From the NCBI GenBank assembly GCA_030606485.1, contig JAUWGH010000005.1:198129-262128 (forward strand): a stretch of DNA of 64,000 nucleotides, in the 5' to 3' direction. Within the stretch, counting starts at the first letter, position 1. Each line of letters starts with the position of its first letter. A program made the translations under genes and the position numbers. The notes under the pieces were generated by a model. That model searched no databases. It was not told the DNA's origin and worked only from the letters and a program-made list of their open reading frames with translations. Positions 51,146 through 58,131 of the stretch are shown one piece after another. Source of the stretch: Promethearchaeota archaeon. GTDB taxonomy: Archaea; Asgardarchaeota; Lokiarchaeia; Sigyniarchaeales; SOKP01.

Positions 51146-51379
51146 ATGGTTGATATAAAAGAGACATTGGATGTGAGAGGAGAAGTTTGCCCTTATCCAG
51201 ATGTAAAGAGCAAGAGAAAAGTAAAGAAAATGAATTCGGGAGAAGTTCTTCAAATTTTAGTTGACTATCCTCTTTCTGCGGAGAGAATTCCTGAAACTAT
51301 GAAATCTTTAGGACATGAACTAATCTCTGTAGAAAAAAAAGGAGATGCTGAATGGGAGATTCTCGTTAAAATAAAATAA
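51146..51379 (+). CDS. TusA/SirA-family sulfur (or selenium) carrier protein
   Basis: 77 residues: LDVRGEVCPYPDVKSKRKVKK contains the TusA motif CPxP, in which the cysteine carries a persulfide. It starts a five-gene run (51146-53510) with a YeeE/YedE-type channel and three DsrE-fold proteins. TusA-like proteins hand sulfur to DsrE-type relays; TusA/YedE pairs are also linked to selenium uptake. Because a selenoprotein gene (56506) follows, the selenium role is plausible, but sequence alone cannot separate the two. Confidence 0.8.
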   Translation: MVDIKETLDVRGEVCPYPDVKSKRKVKKMNSGEVLQILVDYPLSAERIPETMKSLGHELISVEKKGDAEWEILVKIK

Positions 51380-51393
51380 GGAGACGAAGAAAA

Positions 51394-52455
51394 ATGGAAC
51401 TAGAACTATTTTTACTAATGTTAATCCCTGGACTTATAGTGGGATTTATATTTGGTTTTATTTTGCAACGTGGACGATTCTGCATGAATTCTGCATTTAG
51501 AGATATTATTCTGCTAAAAGAATACAAGCTAGTAAAAGGTGTGGCGCTTGCAATTGGAGTTCAAATGATTGGGTTTTCAATACTGATACTTGCAGGTGCG
51601 GTTACTCAGAATCCTAAACCTTTTACAGTGTTTGGAAATATTATTGGAGGTTTTGTTTTTGGAATAGGAATGGTTCTTGCTGCAGGTTGTGCTAGTGGAA
51701 CTACATACCGAGTCGGAGAAGGAATGGTGGGGTCATTTGTAGCATTAATTGGGCTAGGACTTGGAGCTTATATGACAAAATCAGGGATTTTATCAAGTAC
51801 CAGTACAGCTTTGAAAACAACAATAACCGATGGTGATGGAAATAACCTTACCGTTGCTGGTGTTGCTACACCAATCGTAATGCTCATCATAGGTATTGTT
51901 ATCCTTGGCGTTTTTGTATATTTTCATTTATTACCGGCTTTAAAAAGTAGAAAGGAGGCTAAAGAATCAATCTTAGATTTTAGTGATATGAAAACAAAAA
52001 TCTTTAAAAAGTCATATCCTTGGTGGGTTGCTGGCACTGCAATTGGTATACTTAATTGTGTAGCATGGTTATCTTCTGCAGCAGCAGGTAGAAATTATCC
52101 GTTGGGTATTACTTCGGGCTGGCTTGGTTGGCTTAATTTTTCGGTGACGGCAGATGAAGCCGCTCTTAACTGGCTTTTATTTATGGTTGCAGGTGTTATC
52201 TTAGGTGCTTTTATAGCTGCTCTTATTTCAAAAGAATTTAAATTAAGGATTCCAAAACAGGGAAAAACATTGTTAATCCAATTTGCTGGAGGACTTATTA
52301 TGGGTTTCGGAGCGGTTACAGCAGCTGGTTGTAATATTGGAAATCTTCTAAGTGGTGTTCCAATGCTTTCAGTTGGGAGTATAGTTACCTCTGCATTTAT
52401 AATATTAGGTTGCTGGTTGATGGCTTATTTGCTTTTCATGAGAGAGAAAGAATAA
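51394..52455 (+). CDS. YeeE/YedE-family transporter
   Basis: 353 residues with about nine or ten membrane helices. Family motifs: GRFCMNSAFRD near the N-terminus, AAGCASGTTYRVGEG and AAGCNIGNLLSGVPMLSVGS, which each place one cysteine in the channel, matching thiosulfate transporter TsuA and the YedE group proposed for selenium compounds. It follows the TusA gene by 14 nt with a ribosome-binding site (AAGGAGACG), so the two are co-transcribed. Substrate is either thiosulfate-like sulfur or a selenium compound. Confidence 0.8.
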   Translation: MELELFLLMLIPGLIVGFIFGFILQRGRFCMNSAFRDIILLKEYKLVKGVALAIGVQMIGFSILILAGAVTQNPKPFTVFGNIIGGFVFGIGMVLAAGCASGTTYRVGEGMVGSFVALIGLGLGAYMTKSGILSSTSTALKTTITDGDGNNLTVAGVATPIVMLIIGIVILGVFVYFHLLPALKSRKEAKESILDFSDMKTKIFKKSYPWWVAGTAIGILNCVAWLSSAAAGRNYPLGITSGWLGWLNFSVTADEAALNWLLFMVAGVILGAFIAALISKEFKLRIPKQGKTLLIQFAGGLIMGFGAVTAAGCNIGNLLSGVPMLSVGSIVTSAFIILGCWLMAYLLFMREKE

Positions 52456-52480
52456 TAATATAAGGAGTGTAGAATAAAAA

Positions 52481-52843
52481 ATGGCAAAACTGGGTATTCT
52501 CTTTTTTACAGGCCCTTATCAATCTCAAGCGTGCGAAACAGTTTGCAAATTAGCTAACGCTGCGTTAGATAAAGGACATGAAGTGCGTATTTTTTGCTAC
52601 ATGGATGCCGTCAATGCGGTATTGCAAAACCAAAAAAAAATCGATGGAATCTATAACATCGAAGAAGGATTTAAAGAAATACTTAGTAAAGGAGCCGTTG
52701 TGAGATTATGTAATTTATGTCTTTTAGTAAGAGGTACTACAAAAAATTGCTTAACGCGTGATTGCGGTGATATCAAACGAGCTGGAACTCCAGACTTAGC
52801 AAAAATAATAGAATTAACTGATAGGTTAATAGCAATTTGTTAA
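52481..52843 (+). CDS. DsrE/TusD-like sulfurtransferase subunit
   Basis: 120 residues of the DsrE fold: GILFFTGPYQSQACETVCKL at the start, then FCYMDAVNAVL and a C-terminal RLCNLCLLVRGTTKN. The cysteine in the last segment corresponds to the persulfide-bearing site of TusD/DsrE; several more cysteines occur. A ribosome-binding site AAGGAGTG precedes it. With the next two genes it should form a TusBCD/DsrEFH-like complex that receives sulfur from TusA. Confidence 0.75.
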   Translation: MAKLGILFFTGPYQSQACETVCKLANAALDKGHEVRIFCYMDAVNAVLQNQKKIDGIYNIEEGFKEILSKGAVVRLCNLCLLVRGTTKNCLTRDCGDIKRAGTPDLAKIIELTDRLIAIC

Positions 52844-52854
52844 GGTGATAAAAA

Positions 52855-53199
52855 GTGTCGGAAGAAAAAAATTTAATAATACTATTAAGAGAGGCTCCTC
52901 ACGGTTCTCTCCATCCTGTTGAGGGGTTACGAATGTCAGTTGCAGTTAGTAGTGATTACGACCCTATTACCATTGCTATTGATGATGCTGTATATACTTT
53001 TCTTAAGGGTTCAGATAAAACAATATATCAAATGCATATAGATTTCTTAAAAGAAATTGACCTAGATGTTTTTGTTGATAAAAGATCATTAGAGGAACTC
53101 GGTCTTACTAAGGAAGATTTAATTGAGCAGGTGGAAATTAAAGAACATGAGGAAATATTAAAATTAATATCTGAATGTGATTTACTTATTCCTTTTTAG
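52855..53199 (+). CDS. DsrF/TusC-like protein
   Basis: 114 residues starting with GTG, preceded by AAGGTGATAA. IILLREAPHGSLHPVEGLRM, then ITIAIDDAVYTFLKGSDK, then VFVDKRSLEELGLTKEDL match the TusC/DsrF subunit. In the DsrE-fold trimer TusC is usually not the sulfur-bearing one, in line with the single cysteine here near the end. It forms a run with its neighbours (11 nt and 5 nt gaps). Confidence 0.75.
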   Translation: MSEEKNLIILLREAPHGSLHPVEGLRMSVAVSSDYDPITIAIDDAVYTFLKGSDKTIYQMHIDFLKEIDLDVFVDKRSLEELGLTKEDLIEQVEIKEHEEILKLISECDLLIPF

Positions 53200-53204
53200 G
53201 AGGT

Positions 53205-53510
53205 TTGATGATAATGGGAAAAAAAGCATTATATTTTATTACAACAGAAAAAAGATCTGGGATAGAAATGGCCCTAGAAAATACAGAAGACGAAGTTACA
53301 ATCTGTTTGCTCCAAAATGCAGTATTTTTTGCAAATAAAGCTGATAAACAAATAACTAAAGCGCTTGACCAAAATAAAACTGTGATTGCATTAAAAGAAG
53401 ATGTGGAAATAAGAGGATTAAAGAATTTAATCCCTGATAATGTCAAATTACTTGATTATGGAGAAGTAATTGATAAAATCTTTGAATATGATTCTATTAT
53501 AAATATGTAA
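53205..53510 (+). CDS. DsrH/TusB-like protein
   Basis: 101 residues. TICLLQNAVFFANKAD matches the 'LLQDGV.AA' motif of DsrH/TusB. The start ATG at 53205 (or 53211) is preceded by a strong AGGAGGT ribosome-binding site, which overlaps the stop region of the DsrF gene. Last gene of the sulfur/selenium relay run. Confidence 0.75.
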   Translation: MMIMGKKALYFITTEKRSGIEMALENTEDEVTICLLQNAVFFANKADKQITKALDQNKTVIALKEDVEIRGLKNLIPDNVKLLDYGEVIDKIFEYDSIINM

Positions 53511-53816: not shown

Positions 53817-55124
53817 ATGGCCGTAAAAGTATGTTTTAGTCAATTGAGTTCGTGTTGGGGTTGTCATCAGAGTTTACTTAATGCTCATCTTGGCCTTCTT
53901 GATGTGCTCCCAGCATTGGAGATTGTATATTGGCCTACAGTTGTGGATTTTAAACTTGCCTCATTAGAAGCTAGAGAAAACGGAGAGGTTGACGTTGGTT
54001 TTATTGAAGGTTTAGTTCGTACAAAACAAGATTTAGAACTTACTAAATTAACTAGAGAAAAATGTAAAATTATTATTGCTTTTGGTACATGTGCTTGCTA
54101 CGGTAGTGTTCCTGGACTTGCAAATCAATGGTCTATTGAAGAAGTCCAAAATAGAAAATTCATGGAAGTTGAATCAGCAACAACTAAAAGAATTCCTGAT
54201 CAACACGTTCCAGGTTTTGTAGATAAAGTCGTAAATGTTGATGATATTATCAAGGTAGATGCTTACTTGAGTGGTTGTCCTCCAAGAACCGAGCAAATTG
54301 TTGGAGCAGTTCAATTTTTATTGGGACAAAAAGGATTTCCGATGAATGAGAAGACCTTCTGCGAAGATTGTGTATTAAAAGAGAGTAATTGTTTATTAGA
54401 TAAAGGAATTTTATGTTATGGACCAGTTACTAGTATCGGCTGTTCTTTAAAATGTCCGAATAAAGGTGATCCTTGCGTCGGATGTATGGGTCCAGCAAAA
54501 AACACTTCAGAGAAAGTGCAAAAACTACTGGATATGACAAAATCTCTTGATTATATTAGTAGTGGCGATAAAAAGAATTTATTCGAATTCTTATCTTTAT
54601 TCTTAAATATACCATTAATGGCTGGATTTGACCTCTCAAGTGATATTTTAAAGCAAATTAAAAAAAGAGGAAAACCAGATACACCTATAACAAATATGCC
54701 ATCAATTACCACTGAAATCGCAACGAATTTACTCGCATTCTTAGCAAAGCATCCTGAATTCCATGAGATCTCAAATGTTTGTCAAACATGTCCTAGAATA
54801 GTAGGAAAGGGAACAATGACAAAAGTGAAAAGAGATTATGAAGGTCTTCCAAATCAAGAAGACTGCTTTATAGAGCAAGGATATATATGTGTTGGTCCAA
54901 TAACTAAAGCCGGTTGTGGAGGTTTATGTATCAAAGTAAATGCAACTTGCACAGGATGCTATGGACAAACAGAATGGGTAACTGATCAAGCTACAAGATT
55001 TTATAAAACTATTAAAGAGAGTTTCAATGTAGATTTAAGTAAGGAAGAATTTTTTACGCAAGTAAAGGACCCAATCGGAACATTTAATAAATTTACATTA
55101 GCATCAAATCGAGATTTTAATTGA
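53817..55124 (+). CDS. vhuG: F420-non-reducing hydrogenase small subunit with a duplicated C-terminal iron-sulfur module
   Basis: The small subunit of an Mvh/Vhu-type [NiFe] hydrogenase passes electrons from the NiFe site through FeS clusters. The N-terminal 175 residues hold the proximal-cluster ligands: SSCWGCH (C13, C16), FGTCACYGSVPG and SGCPPRTEQI. A Cys-rich module follows (CEDC, CLLDKGILCYGPVTSIGC, CVGCMGP; about 181-225). After about 90 residues a second copy appears (CQTC, CFIEQGYICVGPITKAGC, CTGCYGQ; about 321-385). Normal MvhG has one such module and about 290-310 residues; this has 435. It starts the hydrogenase operon, 12 nt ahead of the large subunit. Confidence 0.85.
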   Translation: MAVKVCFSQLSSCWGCHQSLLNAHLGLLDVLPALEIVYWPTVVDFKLASLEARENGEVDVGFIEGLVRTKQDLELTKLTREKCKIIIAFGTCACYGSVPGLANQWSIEEVQNRKFMEVESATTKRIPDQHVPGFVDKVVNVDDIIKVDAYLSGCPPRTEQIVGAVQFLLGQKGFPMNEKTFCEDCVLKESNCLLDKGILCYGPVTSIGCSLKCPNKGDPCVGCMGPAKNTSEKVQKLLDMTKSLDYISSGDKKNLFEFLSLFLNIPLMAGFDLSSDILKQIKKRGKPDTPITNMPSITTEIATNLLAFLAKHPEFHEISNVCQTCPRIVGKGTMTKVKRDYEGLPNQEDCFIEQGYICVGPITKAGCGGLCIKVNATCTGCYGQTEWVTDQATRFYKTIKESFNVDLSKEEFFTQVKDPIGTFNKFTLASNRDFN

Positions 55125-55136
55125 GATGAATAATAA

Positions 55137-56444
55137 ATGGTAAAAGAAATAATAGTAGAACCAATAACTCGCCTTGAGGGACATGGAGGACTCAGGATCG
55201 TTATTGGAGATGATGGAAAAGTTAAAGACGCTCAATTTAATGTTACATCAACTAGATTTTTTGAAAAGTTTTGCGAAGGGCGTTATTGTGAGCATGTTCC
55301 AAGAATTACAACTAGAATTTGCGGTATTTGTCCAATTCCTCATCATTTAACTCCAACTAAGGCTGTTGAGGACGCTTGGAATGTTCCAATTCCAACACCT
55401 GCATTAAAATTGAGAAAATTGTTGATAAATGCAAAACAATATTCCTCGCATTTGCTACATTTTTACGCTTTAGCTGCACCAGACTTTTTGGTAGGTCCAT
55501 TTGCTGATCCAGCATTAAGAAATATAGTTTATGTAATTAATAAAATGCCTGATGTAGGAGCAATGGCTTTGAAAATGATGGATTTTGGTCAAAAACTCTG
55601 TGCAGAAGTAGGAGGTAAATCTGTACATCCTATTGCAGCAATTGTCGGAGGAATGAAAAAACCAATGGATGAGGACGCTAGACAAAAATTCCTAAAAATG
55701 GTGCCTGAACAAGTTGAGTTTACAAAAAAAACTGTAGATATTGCCTTAAAGGTTATAGAAGATTATTGGGAAGTAATAGCAAATGTGGGAGTGGTTCCAA
55801 CTTATTATCTTGGGATGACTAATAAAGGAGTTCATGATATTTATGAAGGAGATATTCGTGTTGTTGCTCCAGATGGTAAGAAAATGGATTACGATGTTCA
55901 TAAATATTTAGATGTAATAGGAGAGCATGTTCCAGCTCATTCATATGCAACTCATACATATTATAAGCCCGCTGGATATCCAGATGGAATATATCGTACT
56001 AATTGTTTAGCAATGACTAATTGCGCCGATAAAATGGCCACTCCACTAGCAGATGAGGCTTTGAAAGCTATGAAAGCAAAGATTGGAACTGATCCCATTC
56101 ATCATACGTTTGCCTATCATTGGGCCAGAATAATTGAGACAGTTGAGGCAATTGAAGTAATTGCGGGACTTCTTGAGGATTCAGATATATGTAATCCAGA
56201 TTGTAAGACATTAGATATTGAGCCAAAAGAGGCAGAAGGAATAGGAATCACAGAAGCACCACGAGGAATATTATTATATCATATATGGTCTGATGCAGAT
56301 GGGATTTGTAAGAAATTAAATCTGTTAGTCGCAACAAATCATAATATTGCTGGTATCGAGAAGTCGTTGATGCATGTAGCTAAGCAGGTGTTTGAGGATA
56401 AAGTATTAGATGGATTAAAATTGCCAGACCCTTGGATAAAATAA
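55137..56444 (+). CDS. vhuA: F420-non-reducing hydrogenase large subunit lacking its C-terminal metal-binding motif
   Basis: 435 residues. The N-terminal nickel-binding motif RICGICPIPHH (C62, C65) is intact and the interior matches MvhA/VhuA (EPITRLEGHGG; AVGGKSVHP-like AEVGGKSVHPIAAIVGGMKK; EAPRGILLYHIWSDADG). The protein ends at DGLKLPDPWIK, just before the usual DPCxxCxxH end that supplies the other two nickel ligands and the maturation cleavage site. The missing end is encoded by a separate small gene 61 nt downstream (vhuU, 56506-56655), as in methanococcal Vhu. Both products would have to assemble into one active site. Confidence 0.9.
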   Translation: MVKEIIVEPITRLEGHGGLRIVIGDDGKVKDAQFNVTSTRFFEKFCEGRYCEHVPRITTRICGICPIPHHLTPTKAVEDAWNVPIPTPALKLRKLLINAKQYSSHLLHFYALAAPDFLVGPFADPALRNIVYVINKMPDVGAMALKMMDFGQKLCAEVGGKSVHPIAAIVGGMKKPMDEDARQKFLKMVPEQVEFTKKTVDIALKVIEDYWEVIANVGVVPTYYLGMTNKGVHDIYEGDIRVVAPDGKKMDYDVHKYLDVIGEHVPAHSYATHTYYKPAGYPDGIYRTNCLAMTNCADKMATPLADEALKAMKAKIGTDPIHHTFAYHWARIIETVEAIEVIAGLLEDSDICNPDCKTLDIEPKEAEGIGITEAPRGILLYHIWSDADGICKKLNLLVATNHNIAGIEKSLMHVAKQVFEDKVLDGLKLPDPWIK

Positions 56445-56505
56445 AAACTATAGAGGATTTTTTTACTCTAAATAATTAAAAAATTGGAGAAAAGTGAAAA
56501 AAAAT

Positions 56506-56655
56506 ATGGAAGATATTCCTGAAGGACTAGTAAATTTCTTAGAAATGATAGTCCGATGTTATGATTGTTGACTATCGTGTGCCGCCCACATCACAGTTGT
56601 GAATGAGGACGGTAAAGAAATTTACTCTCGTGAATTGAATGTTGGTTTAGGATGA
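56506..56655 (+). CDS. vhuU: VhuU: selenocysteine-containing C-terminal peptide of the hydrogenase large subunit
   Basis: A 49-codon frame from an ATG (preceded by TTGGAGA; a GTG lies four codons upstream) reads into an in-frame TGA at 56569-56571, codon 22. Decoded as selenocysteine (U), the centre is RCYDC-U-LSCAAH, which lines up with the DPC-xx-CxxH nickel-binding end of [NiFe] hydrogenases, U taking the place of the first Cys. The large subunit upstream lacks exactly this end. VhuU of Methanococcus is the known precedent, and selenoproteins including VhuU have been reported in Lokiarchaeota. Residues after AAH (ITVVNEDG...) would be the cleaved tail. The stop is TGA at 56653; if that too were Sec the frame would reach TAA at 56713. 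The Pro of DPC is replaced by Cys here. Confidence 0.85.
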
Positions 56656-56713
56656 ATATCCAATAAAAACAATAGATTGGATATAACTGCCCTTGCATGG
56701 GTTAAAGGCCAAT
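56642..56713 (+). promoter_or_regulatory. Candidate SECIS-like structured element at the 3' end of vhuU
   Basis: A 9-bp perfect inverted repeat (ATATCCAAT at 56656-56664, ATTGGATAT at 56676-56684, 11-base A-rich loop) starts one base after the vhuU stop. A GAA precedes it on the 5' side. An outer pairing TTGGTTTA (56642-56649) with TAAA and CCAA (56703-56712, GG bulge) would enclose it together with a CCC/GGG hairpin (56690-56701). It is more GC-rich than its surroundings. Archaeal SECIS elements sit in the 3' untranslated region, as here. The exact archaeal consensus (GAA/A internal loop with a short GC stem) is only partly matched. Confidence 0.5.
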
Positions 56714-56760: not shown

Positions 56761-57255
56761 ATGGCAACAGATTTTGAATTTAGAAAGCAAGTTCTTGATA
56801 TGCATATGAGTGGTGTGATCAAATATTGTTATCAATGCAATCGATGCACAGATTATTGCCCCGTTGCCGAAGTTACTGATAATGCATACAATCCAAGACA
56901 AAATATTTTAAATGCATTGCTTGGCTTTAAAGATGCAATATTTTCAGCAGAAAAAATTGCTATATGGGGTTGTACAGTTTGTGATACATGCGATGAAGTA
57001 TGCCCACAGAATATCGAATTAACAGAGATTTTCAAATTATTAAAGAATCATAGCGTTGCATCTGGGGATGCGCCAGATTTTTATTATCTCCAGGCAAAAA
57101 CAATTTTTGAAAATGCTAAAGCAGTTCCATCTCAACCTGCTATAGAAAGACGACGTGAACAACTTGGTTTACCAGCGGTTGCTGCACCTGATATAAATGA
57201 ACTTACTACCTTATTGAAAAATATGGGAATTGATAAGAAATTGAAAGGAGAGTAA
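56761..57255 (+). CDS. hdrC: Heterodisulfide reductase subunit C (HdrC)
   Basis: 164 residues from the ATG at 56761 (GTG three codons earlier). Two 4Fe-4S ferredoxin motifs: CYQCNRCTDYCP (C23, C26, C29, C33) and CTVCDTCDEVCP. Size and motifs are those of HdrC, which passes electrons to HdrB. Located between vhuU and hdrB, with a 6-nt gap to hdrB. HdrA and MvhD, which normally link hydrogenase to HdrBC, are not in this window. Confidence 0.9.
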   Translation: MATDFEFRKQVLDMHMSGVIKYCYQCNRCTDYCPVAEVTDNAYNPRQNILNALLGFKDAIFSAEKIAIWGCTVCDTCDEVCPQNIELTEIFKLLKNHSVASGDAPDFYYLQAKTIFENAKAVPSQPAIERRREQLGLPAVAAPDINELTTLLKNMGIDKKLKGE

Positions 57256-57261
57256 AGAAAA

Positions 57262-58131
57262 ATGGCAGAGTTTAAAATGTTTGAAGGTTGTATGATTGGT
57301 AATAGGATTCCTTTTATAGAAGCTTCTTGTAGAAAAGTTTTCGATAAATTAGGTATAGCAACTTCTCAGGCTCCATTCTCGTGTTGTCCTGATCCAACCG
57401 GTTTTGCTAATTTTGATAACGATGGATGGTTAGCAGTAGGTGCTCGTAATTTAGCATTAGCCGAATCTGAAGGAAAAGATATTATCTCTCTTTGTAATGG
57501 CTGTTCAAATACATTAAAACTAGTTAATCATACATTAAAACATGACAGTTTTAAGAAAGACAAAATTAACGCAGAATTGGCTAAAATCGGGAAGGAATAT
57601 AAAGGAACTATTGATGTAAAGCACTTTGTTAGTGTGCTTAAAGGTGAATTAGAAAAGATAAAAAGTTCCACAGTGAAACCATTATCAGGTTTAAAAGTTG
57701 CGTGCCATCCTGGCTGTCACTATATGCGTCCTTCTGAGGTTATGGAAACTGACGATCCTATGCATCCAATAGATCTAAAAGAGATTGTTACTGCATGCGG
57801 AGCAACAGTAGTTGATTATGGAGAAGAAGTATTATGTTGTGGTTCATCAGTTTCAAATGCGTATGAGGATCATGGCATGGCAATCTTGAAGAAGAAGATG
57901 GATGCTGTGAAAAAAGCAGGTGCTGATTGCTTGGTTGTTAATTGTCCTGCGTGTTTTCAACAATTTGATGGAAAACAGAGAGATTTATCAAAGAAATTCG
58001 AGGAGGAATTCAAAATTCCAATATTGTACATTTCTGAATTAATCGCTCTTGGAATGGGAATTCCTGCCGATGAGTTGGGAACTAAGTTTCATAGAACTAG
58101 AGTAAGTGATATTTTAGAAAAGATTGGTTAA
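57262..58131 (+). CDS. hdrB: Heterodisulfide reductase subunit B (HdrB)
   Basis: 289 residues. Both cysteine-rich CCG domains are present: FSCCPDP with SLCNGCSNTLK, and ACHPGCHYMRPSE with VLCCGSS and VNCPACFQQFD. In methanogens these hold two non-cubane [4Fe-4S] clusters that reduce the CoM-S-S-CoB disulfide. In a non-methanogen the disulfide or other acceptor is unknown. It is the last gene of the operon: T runs at 58159-58177 follow. Confidence 0.9.
   Translation: MAEFKMFEGCMIGNRIPFIEASCRKVFDKLGIATSQAPFSCCPDPTGFANFDNDGWLAVGARNLALAESEGKDIISLCNGCSNTLKLVNHTLKHDSFKKDKINAELAKIGKEYKGTIDVKHFVSVLKGELEKIKSSTVKPLSGLKVACHPGCHYMRPSEVMETDDPMHPIDLKEIVTACGATVVDYGEEVLCCGSSVSNAYEDHGMAILKKKMDAVKKAGADCLVVNCPACFQQFDGKQRDLSKKFEEEFKIPILYISELIALGMGIPADELGTKFHRTRVSDILEKIG

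Follow-up and report, generated by a model that had tools for sequence, protein, structure and literature searches.

The short reading frame at 56506-56655 is, with high probability, vhuU, the selenocysteine (Sec)-carrying C-terminal piece of the large subunit of a Vhu/Mvh-type [NiFe] hydrogenase. This assignment is drawn from sequence and comparison: the split of the large subunit, a conserved UGA, a SECIS element with covariation, the Sec machinery of the genome and selection on the codons. The gene lies in the window, the 64,000-nucleotide stretch of DNA analysed here (contig C5:198129-262128), which belongs to a 3.75 Mb assembly estimated to be 100% complete with 4.65% contamination. The features discussed are located in Table 1.

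Table 1. Features of the vhu locus and the tRNA-Sec gene (positions in the window unless a contig or locus is named)
Feature	Position (strand)	Description	Evidence
VhuG/MvhG-like hydrogenase small subunit	53817..55124 (+)	435 aa, extra Cys-rich segment	PF01058 93 bits; NCBIfam VhuG E 2e-74, below cut-off
VhuA	55137..56444 (+)	First nickel-binding motif RICGICP, second motif absent	NCBIfam VhuA 439 bits over 4-419, cut-off 800
Shine-Dalgarno-like GGAGAAAAGTGA	56486..56497 (+)	Upstream of vhuU	Sequence
vhuU	56506..56655 (+)	Predicted 49-aa selenoprotein with second nickel-binding motif; coordinates include UGA stop
Sec codon UGA	56569..56571 (+)	Residue 22; first-Cys position of DPCxxCxxH	Alignment to 5ODC and 9sfi chain M
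SECIS, eukaryote-like type I	56641..56713 (+)		Folds, covariation
SECIS lower stem	56641-56646/56708-56713	GUUGGU/GCCAAU
SECIS core	56652-56655, 56685-56686	AUGA, AA
vhuU stop UGA	56653..56655 (+)	Within SECIS core AUGA
SECIS upper stem	56656-56664/56676-56684	9 bp
SECIS apical loop	56665-56675	AAAAACAAUAG, 11 nt, begins AAAAA
HdrC-like subunit	56761..57255 (+)		NCBIfam TIGR03290 E 1e-24, below cut-off
HdrB-like subunit	57262..58131 (+)		NCBIfam TIGR03288 E 3e-81, below cut-off
tRNA-Sec	C2:189906-190018 (= L014:507-619 (-))		Covariance model 47.1 bits, gathering score 47

The vhuU reading frame

The vhuU frame opens with the ATG at 56506, passes through the TGA read here as Sec and meets its next in-frame stop at the TGA of 56653-56655. 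Its translation is MEDIPEGLVNFLEMIVRCYDC-U-LSCAAH-ITVVNEDGKEIYSRELNVGLG*; written with everything downstream of Sec as one piece it is MEDIPEGLVNFLEMIVRCYDC-U-LSCAAHITVVNEDGKEIYSRELNVGLG, followed by the TGA stop. Among relatives, GTGA is repeatedly found a few bases 5' of the vhuU ATG. An earlier note on this DNA had described a short frame 61 nt past the end of VhuA with a start, a ribosome-binding-like site, an in-frame TGA and a later stop, and all of these are present in the window.

When the peptide was scanned against NCBIfam with Cys substituted for Sec, the VhuU model NF041786 was its best match (E 1.2e-13), scoring 50.7 bits against a cut-off of 70. That cut-off is an annotation threshold and not a defining biological feature of VhuU. 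The window does hold a short separate ORF adjoining a VhuA without the second motif, with a UGA where D-x-C-x-x-C-x-x-H has its first nickel-binding Cys. The earlier claim that annotation misses the gene was overstated: the family model does recognize the peptide, though at a score below its cut-off.

A large subunit in two pieces

VhuA ends before the DPCxxCxxH motif, as the earlier note had it, and VhuA and VhuU together tile the large subunit of a solved hydrogenase, 5ODC MvhA of Methanothermococcus thermolithotrophicus. In a PDB search, VhuA residues 5-417 matched 5ODC MvhA residues 4-416 (E = 6e-97) and VhuU residues 2-31 matched residues 422-451 (E = 7e-6). The trimmed VhuU peptide likewise matched the C-termini of Mvh large subunits, with a best E of 2.6e-5. 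In the alignment with large-subunit C-termini that had been proposed as a check, the U falls on the first Cys of DPCLSCATH in 5ODC. The closest solved large subunit to VhuA is 9sfi, with an alignment that runs to about residues 416-417. Since 9sfi itself consists of a 418-residue alpha chain and a 27-residue VhuU-like chain, a split large subunit is real biochemistry elsewhere; its chain M contains RAYDPXYSCAAHM, with a non-standard residue (X) in the place of Sec. Both the tiling of 5ODC and the two chains of 9sfi support the earlier proposal that the active-site ligands come from two polypeptides. VhuA, with the first motif, and VhuU, with the second (D-C-U-L-S-C-A-A-H), would come together at a single Ni-Fe site, and the VhuU tail past His28 would probably be trimmed in maturation.

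The SECIS element and the stop codon within it

A SECIS element that overlaps the vhuU stop, absent from the earlier note, was found in the present analysis. Type I eukaryote-like SECIS elements of Asgard archaea have a GA_[G/A]A core, an upper stem of 7-15 bp and an apical loop of 8-20 nt (PMC11227280), and the vhuU element falls within this description with its AUGA_AA core, 9 bp and 11-nt loop. Both sides of the upper stem have changed among relatives in 7 of 8 pairs while 99.5% of cells remain paired; no shuffle equals this, and controls in which the stem was slid collapse. For the lower stem, 49 sequences together retain 292 of the 294 possible pairs; 2000 shuffles averaged 271, peaked at 281 and never reached the observed value. 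Since these shuffles ignore relatedness, their counts should not be read as probabilities; relatedness is retained in the slid controls, which also support the structure. The 5' half of the lower stem is vhuU coding sequence (Val-Gly) and the 3' half is untranslated, and paired changes occur across them among relatives (GTTGG/CCAAC to GTAGG/CCTAC). Therefore, codon choice in this part of vhuU is tied to RNA structure. We propose that EFSec would bring Sec-tRNA to the UGA at 56569-56571, directed by this SECIS.

Rfam gave no match at the SECIS position. A genome-wide search with a SECIS-like pattern was too loose to be of use (about 1000 matches, versus several hundred with a reversed-pattern control). 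An RNA model trained on the vhuU SECIS found only that element convincingly, and it therefore misses the SECIS types of other selenoprotein genes.

The UGA within the core AUGA (UUGA in four) doubles as the in-frame stop of vhuU, both in the window and in nearly all close relatives, an overlap that has been reported for Lokiarchaeia (PMC11227280). As the SECIS spans the vhuU stop, one UGA would be a termination signal and at the same time part of a recoding signal. This second UGA may terminate because it lies inside the SECIS core, which a ribosome standing there would already have opened. If both UGA codons were instead read as Sec, a longer VhuU with the C-terminal extension ISNKNNRLDITALAWVKGQ would result; the frame past the second UGA is open until a later TAA in the window, and the SECIS lies on the same mRNA. 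However, the extension is not conserved, as many relatives have just two or three codons here (UGA-N-I-Q-stop). Two relatives (L051 and L076) stop ahead of the core at a TAG created by a TA insertion that leaves the core intact, and TAA or TAG is a frequent stop in the order's other families, with the SECIS-like element, where visible, further downstream. Moreover, a ribosome that had reached the second UGA would be expected to disrupt the SECIS. We consider double decoding very improbable and prefer a VhuU that ends at the second UGA. The gene thus offers a simple test case, with two UGA codons of different meaning on one short mRNA.

Conservation, selection and the Cys paralogue

We took 55 loci from named genomes, most of which could be aligned through the SECIS, and together with the window these gave 52 rows. 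The Sec position is TGA in all 52 of these Lokiarchaeia loci and a Cys codon in none. The VhuA of the window and that of the MAG 'Candidatus Lokiarchaeota archaeon 6H3_1' share 99% identity, and all other relatives found in the named collection are Lokiarchaeal, which makes the source an Asgard archaeon. Most of the more distant Asgard genomes read, which come from other families, orders and classes, likewise carry a vhuU with TGA. Over eight relatives (near-identical L026 left out), vhuU has a dS of 0.18-0.82 and a dN of 0.02-0.09; vhuA, compared with the two nearest clearly diverged relatives, has a dS of about 0.5 and a dN of about 0.045, and dN/dS is about 0.1 for either gene. Because dN is well below dS in vhuU, the codons before as well as after the UGA are under purifying selection. 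The conservation around the TGA that the earlier note had asserted is thus seen in the 52 aligned loci as well as in these rates. With peptide and TGA kept, purifying selection and a PDB match, the vhuU frame is, as judged from these comparisons, not a chance one.

The earlier note had also named, as grounds for giving up its reading, a separate full-length large subunit with its own Cys motif that would show this cluster to be dead. Such a copy does exist, on contig C8 (434 aa, ending DPCISCATH), and it could be the working enzyme if the vhu cluster were decaying and its UGA a genuine nonsense mutation. However, the C8 large subunit is only about 26% identical to VhuA and sits in another cluster, where a separate small subunit and an HdrA-like gene accompany it; it is a distant paralogue and therefore does not show that the vhu cluster is dead. 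The UGA is kept in 52/52 loci across many genera, a covarying SECIS stands directly behind it, and the selection estimated for vhuA and vhuU is not what a dead copy would show. We regard decay as extremely unlikely and retain the reading of a functional, Sec-containing VhuU.

Gene order varies among the relatives. In eight loci (L031, L034, L036, L047, L055, L064, L075 and L080) the order is vhuA-hdrC-hdrB-vhuU, and several of these sit in genomes that also have the normal order. A reading in which one VhuU serves two large subunits, which these eight relatives had seemed to suggest by lacking vhuU beside VhuA, was rejected because vhuU was found about 1.6 kb downstream, past hdrC and hdrB. 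Cys takes the place of the usual Pro before Sec (D-C-U) in the close relatives and in most of the Asgard VhuU sequences read; a few genomes have DPU, DFU or DNU. A function for this Cys, such as a reversible Cys-Sec bond guarding the site, is an unlikely proposition; if true, the Asgard VhuU hydrogenases would have a distinct active-site chemistry.

Two further observations concern the C-terminal end. In L037 (also L090), one genome has a TAA at L037:5447-5449 in the vhuU tail, 13 codons past Sec and beyond the conserved His, which reflects either a tolerated loss of the tail or a sequencing error. A distant Asgard genome (L128) has an extra single-chain Cys large subunit that ends in FDLCMPCAAH-stop, without a trimmable tail, and also carries a separate large-subunit copy beside it.

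Selenocysteine machinery of the genome

Asgard archaea are already known as selenocysteine users (PMC11227280), and the genome contains tRNA-Sec, SepSecS, EFSec, SelD and a PSTK candidate. A 22-24-nt insertion following the UCA anticodon makes the tRNA-Sec score marginal; the insertion is probably an intron that would be spliced out, and with it removed in silico the RNA folds into a cloverleaf whose acceptor has 9 bp and whose T stem has 4 bp. ARAGORN did not detect this tRNA, whereas the covariance model did. SepSecS (E = 7.8e-116) and EFSec (C2:193372; 263.8 bits, above cut-off) are encoded near it on C2. The PSTK candidate, on C10 (121.9 bits), is assigned from the KTI12/PSTK Pfam family alone. 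SelD on C1 has an in-frame TGA of its own (FGUSCK). Elsewhere in the genome, four HdrA/MvhD gene pairs (L154, L155, L156 and L157) each have an HdrA frame with a TGA in DDC-(S/G)-I-U preceding an MvhD frame with two in-frame TGA codons. In the HdrA of L154, CVEUYAC may hold a second Sec.

The earlier statement that the organism uses selenocysteine agrees with this inventory, and the absence of tRNA-Sec and SelB, which was to count against it, is not the case, as tRNA-Sec and EFSec are present. Decoding of the UGA at 56569 as Trp or Cys through a changed genetic code has nothing specific in its favour and is hardly credible given a complete Sec pathway and a SECIS, conserved motifs with TGA in SelD, HdrA and MvhD (other known Asgard selenoprotein families), and ordinary genes of the vhu operon that have no in-frame TGA.

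Operon context and predicted function

The large subunit and the MvhG-type small subunit, with closest homologues in Mvh/Vhu, point to [NiFe] hydrogenase group 3c (Mvh/Vhu) for the enzyme. MvhD and HdrA genes are missing from the vhu cluster, and we infer that VhuG, VhuA and VhuU work with HdrC and HdrB and are probably joined by HdrA and MvhD from the pairs encoded elsewhere. By analogy with the methanogen system, this Vhu/Mvh-type hydrogenase would oxidise H2 and pass the electrons through an Hdr unit. The Cys-rich iron-sulfur segment of the small subunit is seemingly present twice, and once in the C8 paralogue (262 aa).

Directly upstream of the vhu operon, at 51146-53510, lie TusA-YeeE-DsrE-DsrF-DsrH-like sulfur-relay genes. 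About 14 further Lokiarchaeal loci have these genes next to vhu, usually oriented the other way, but the nearest relatives (L026-L028) do not. A selenium-transport role for TusA-YeeE-DsrEFH was weakened as a candidate by YeeE, which is closest to the thiosulfate transporter TsuA and not to seleno-YedE. It was weakened too by a yedE deletion in M. maripaludis, which had no clear effect on selenium transport (PMC11097638).

Comparison with known systems

Split VhuU selenoproteins in Lokiarchaeia were reportedly described by Mariotti in 2016. In the accessible literature, that 2016 Lokiarchaeota paper excepted, we found no description of the D-C-U motif, the relocated vhuU or the covariation across the stop and coding half of the SECIS. 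The novelty implied by the earlier note was overstated, since both the family and the split were already known (PMC11227280, PMC13188914, PDB 9sfi): VhuU is listed for Lokiarchaeia (PMC11227280, PMC13188914) and was described as a selenoprotein subunit for Methanococcus (PMC11097638). The present gene is best seen as a well-supported further example of a system known from methanogens and other Lokiarchaea. It would confirm that a nearly complete Lokiarchaeal genome encodes a selenium-dependent hydrogenase with one active site built from two polypeptides.

Like VhuU of the Methanococcales (F420-non-reducing hydrogenase, NF041786), the Lokiarchaeal protein is a small separate polypeptide just after VhuA, with predicted Sec for the first Cys of the second motif, and the G-A-U gene order is that of vhuDGAUB in M. 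maripaludis (PMC11097638). It differs in scoring below the family cut-off, in having D-C-U rather than D-P-U, in a SECIS that is eukaryote-like rather than euryarchaeal, and in a cluster that continues with HdrC/HdrB and has no MvhD gene. The 5ODC MvhA has the same motifs in one polypeptide, with Cys for Sec. The hydrogenase of PDB 9sfi/9t1s (418-aa alpha and 27-aa chain) shares the two-polypeptide large subunit, with a small chain that ends DPXYSCAAHM, although DP stands before its Sec position where the VhuU of the window has DC. From the FrhA/MvhA/VhuU selenoproteins of Lokiarchaeia (Huang 2024, PMC11227280), which are of the same lineage and family, we found no difference: the AUGA_AA core (reported there for frhA genes), the UGA stop overlapping the SECIS AUGA and the lower stem [U/C]GG_C[C/U][A/G] are all present in the window too. 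The vhuU loci form a clean comparative set for a SECIS that bridges archaeal and eukaryotic Sec decoding.
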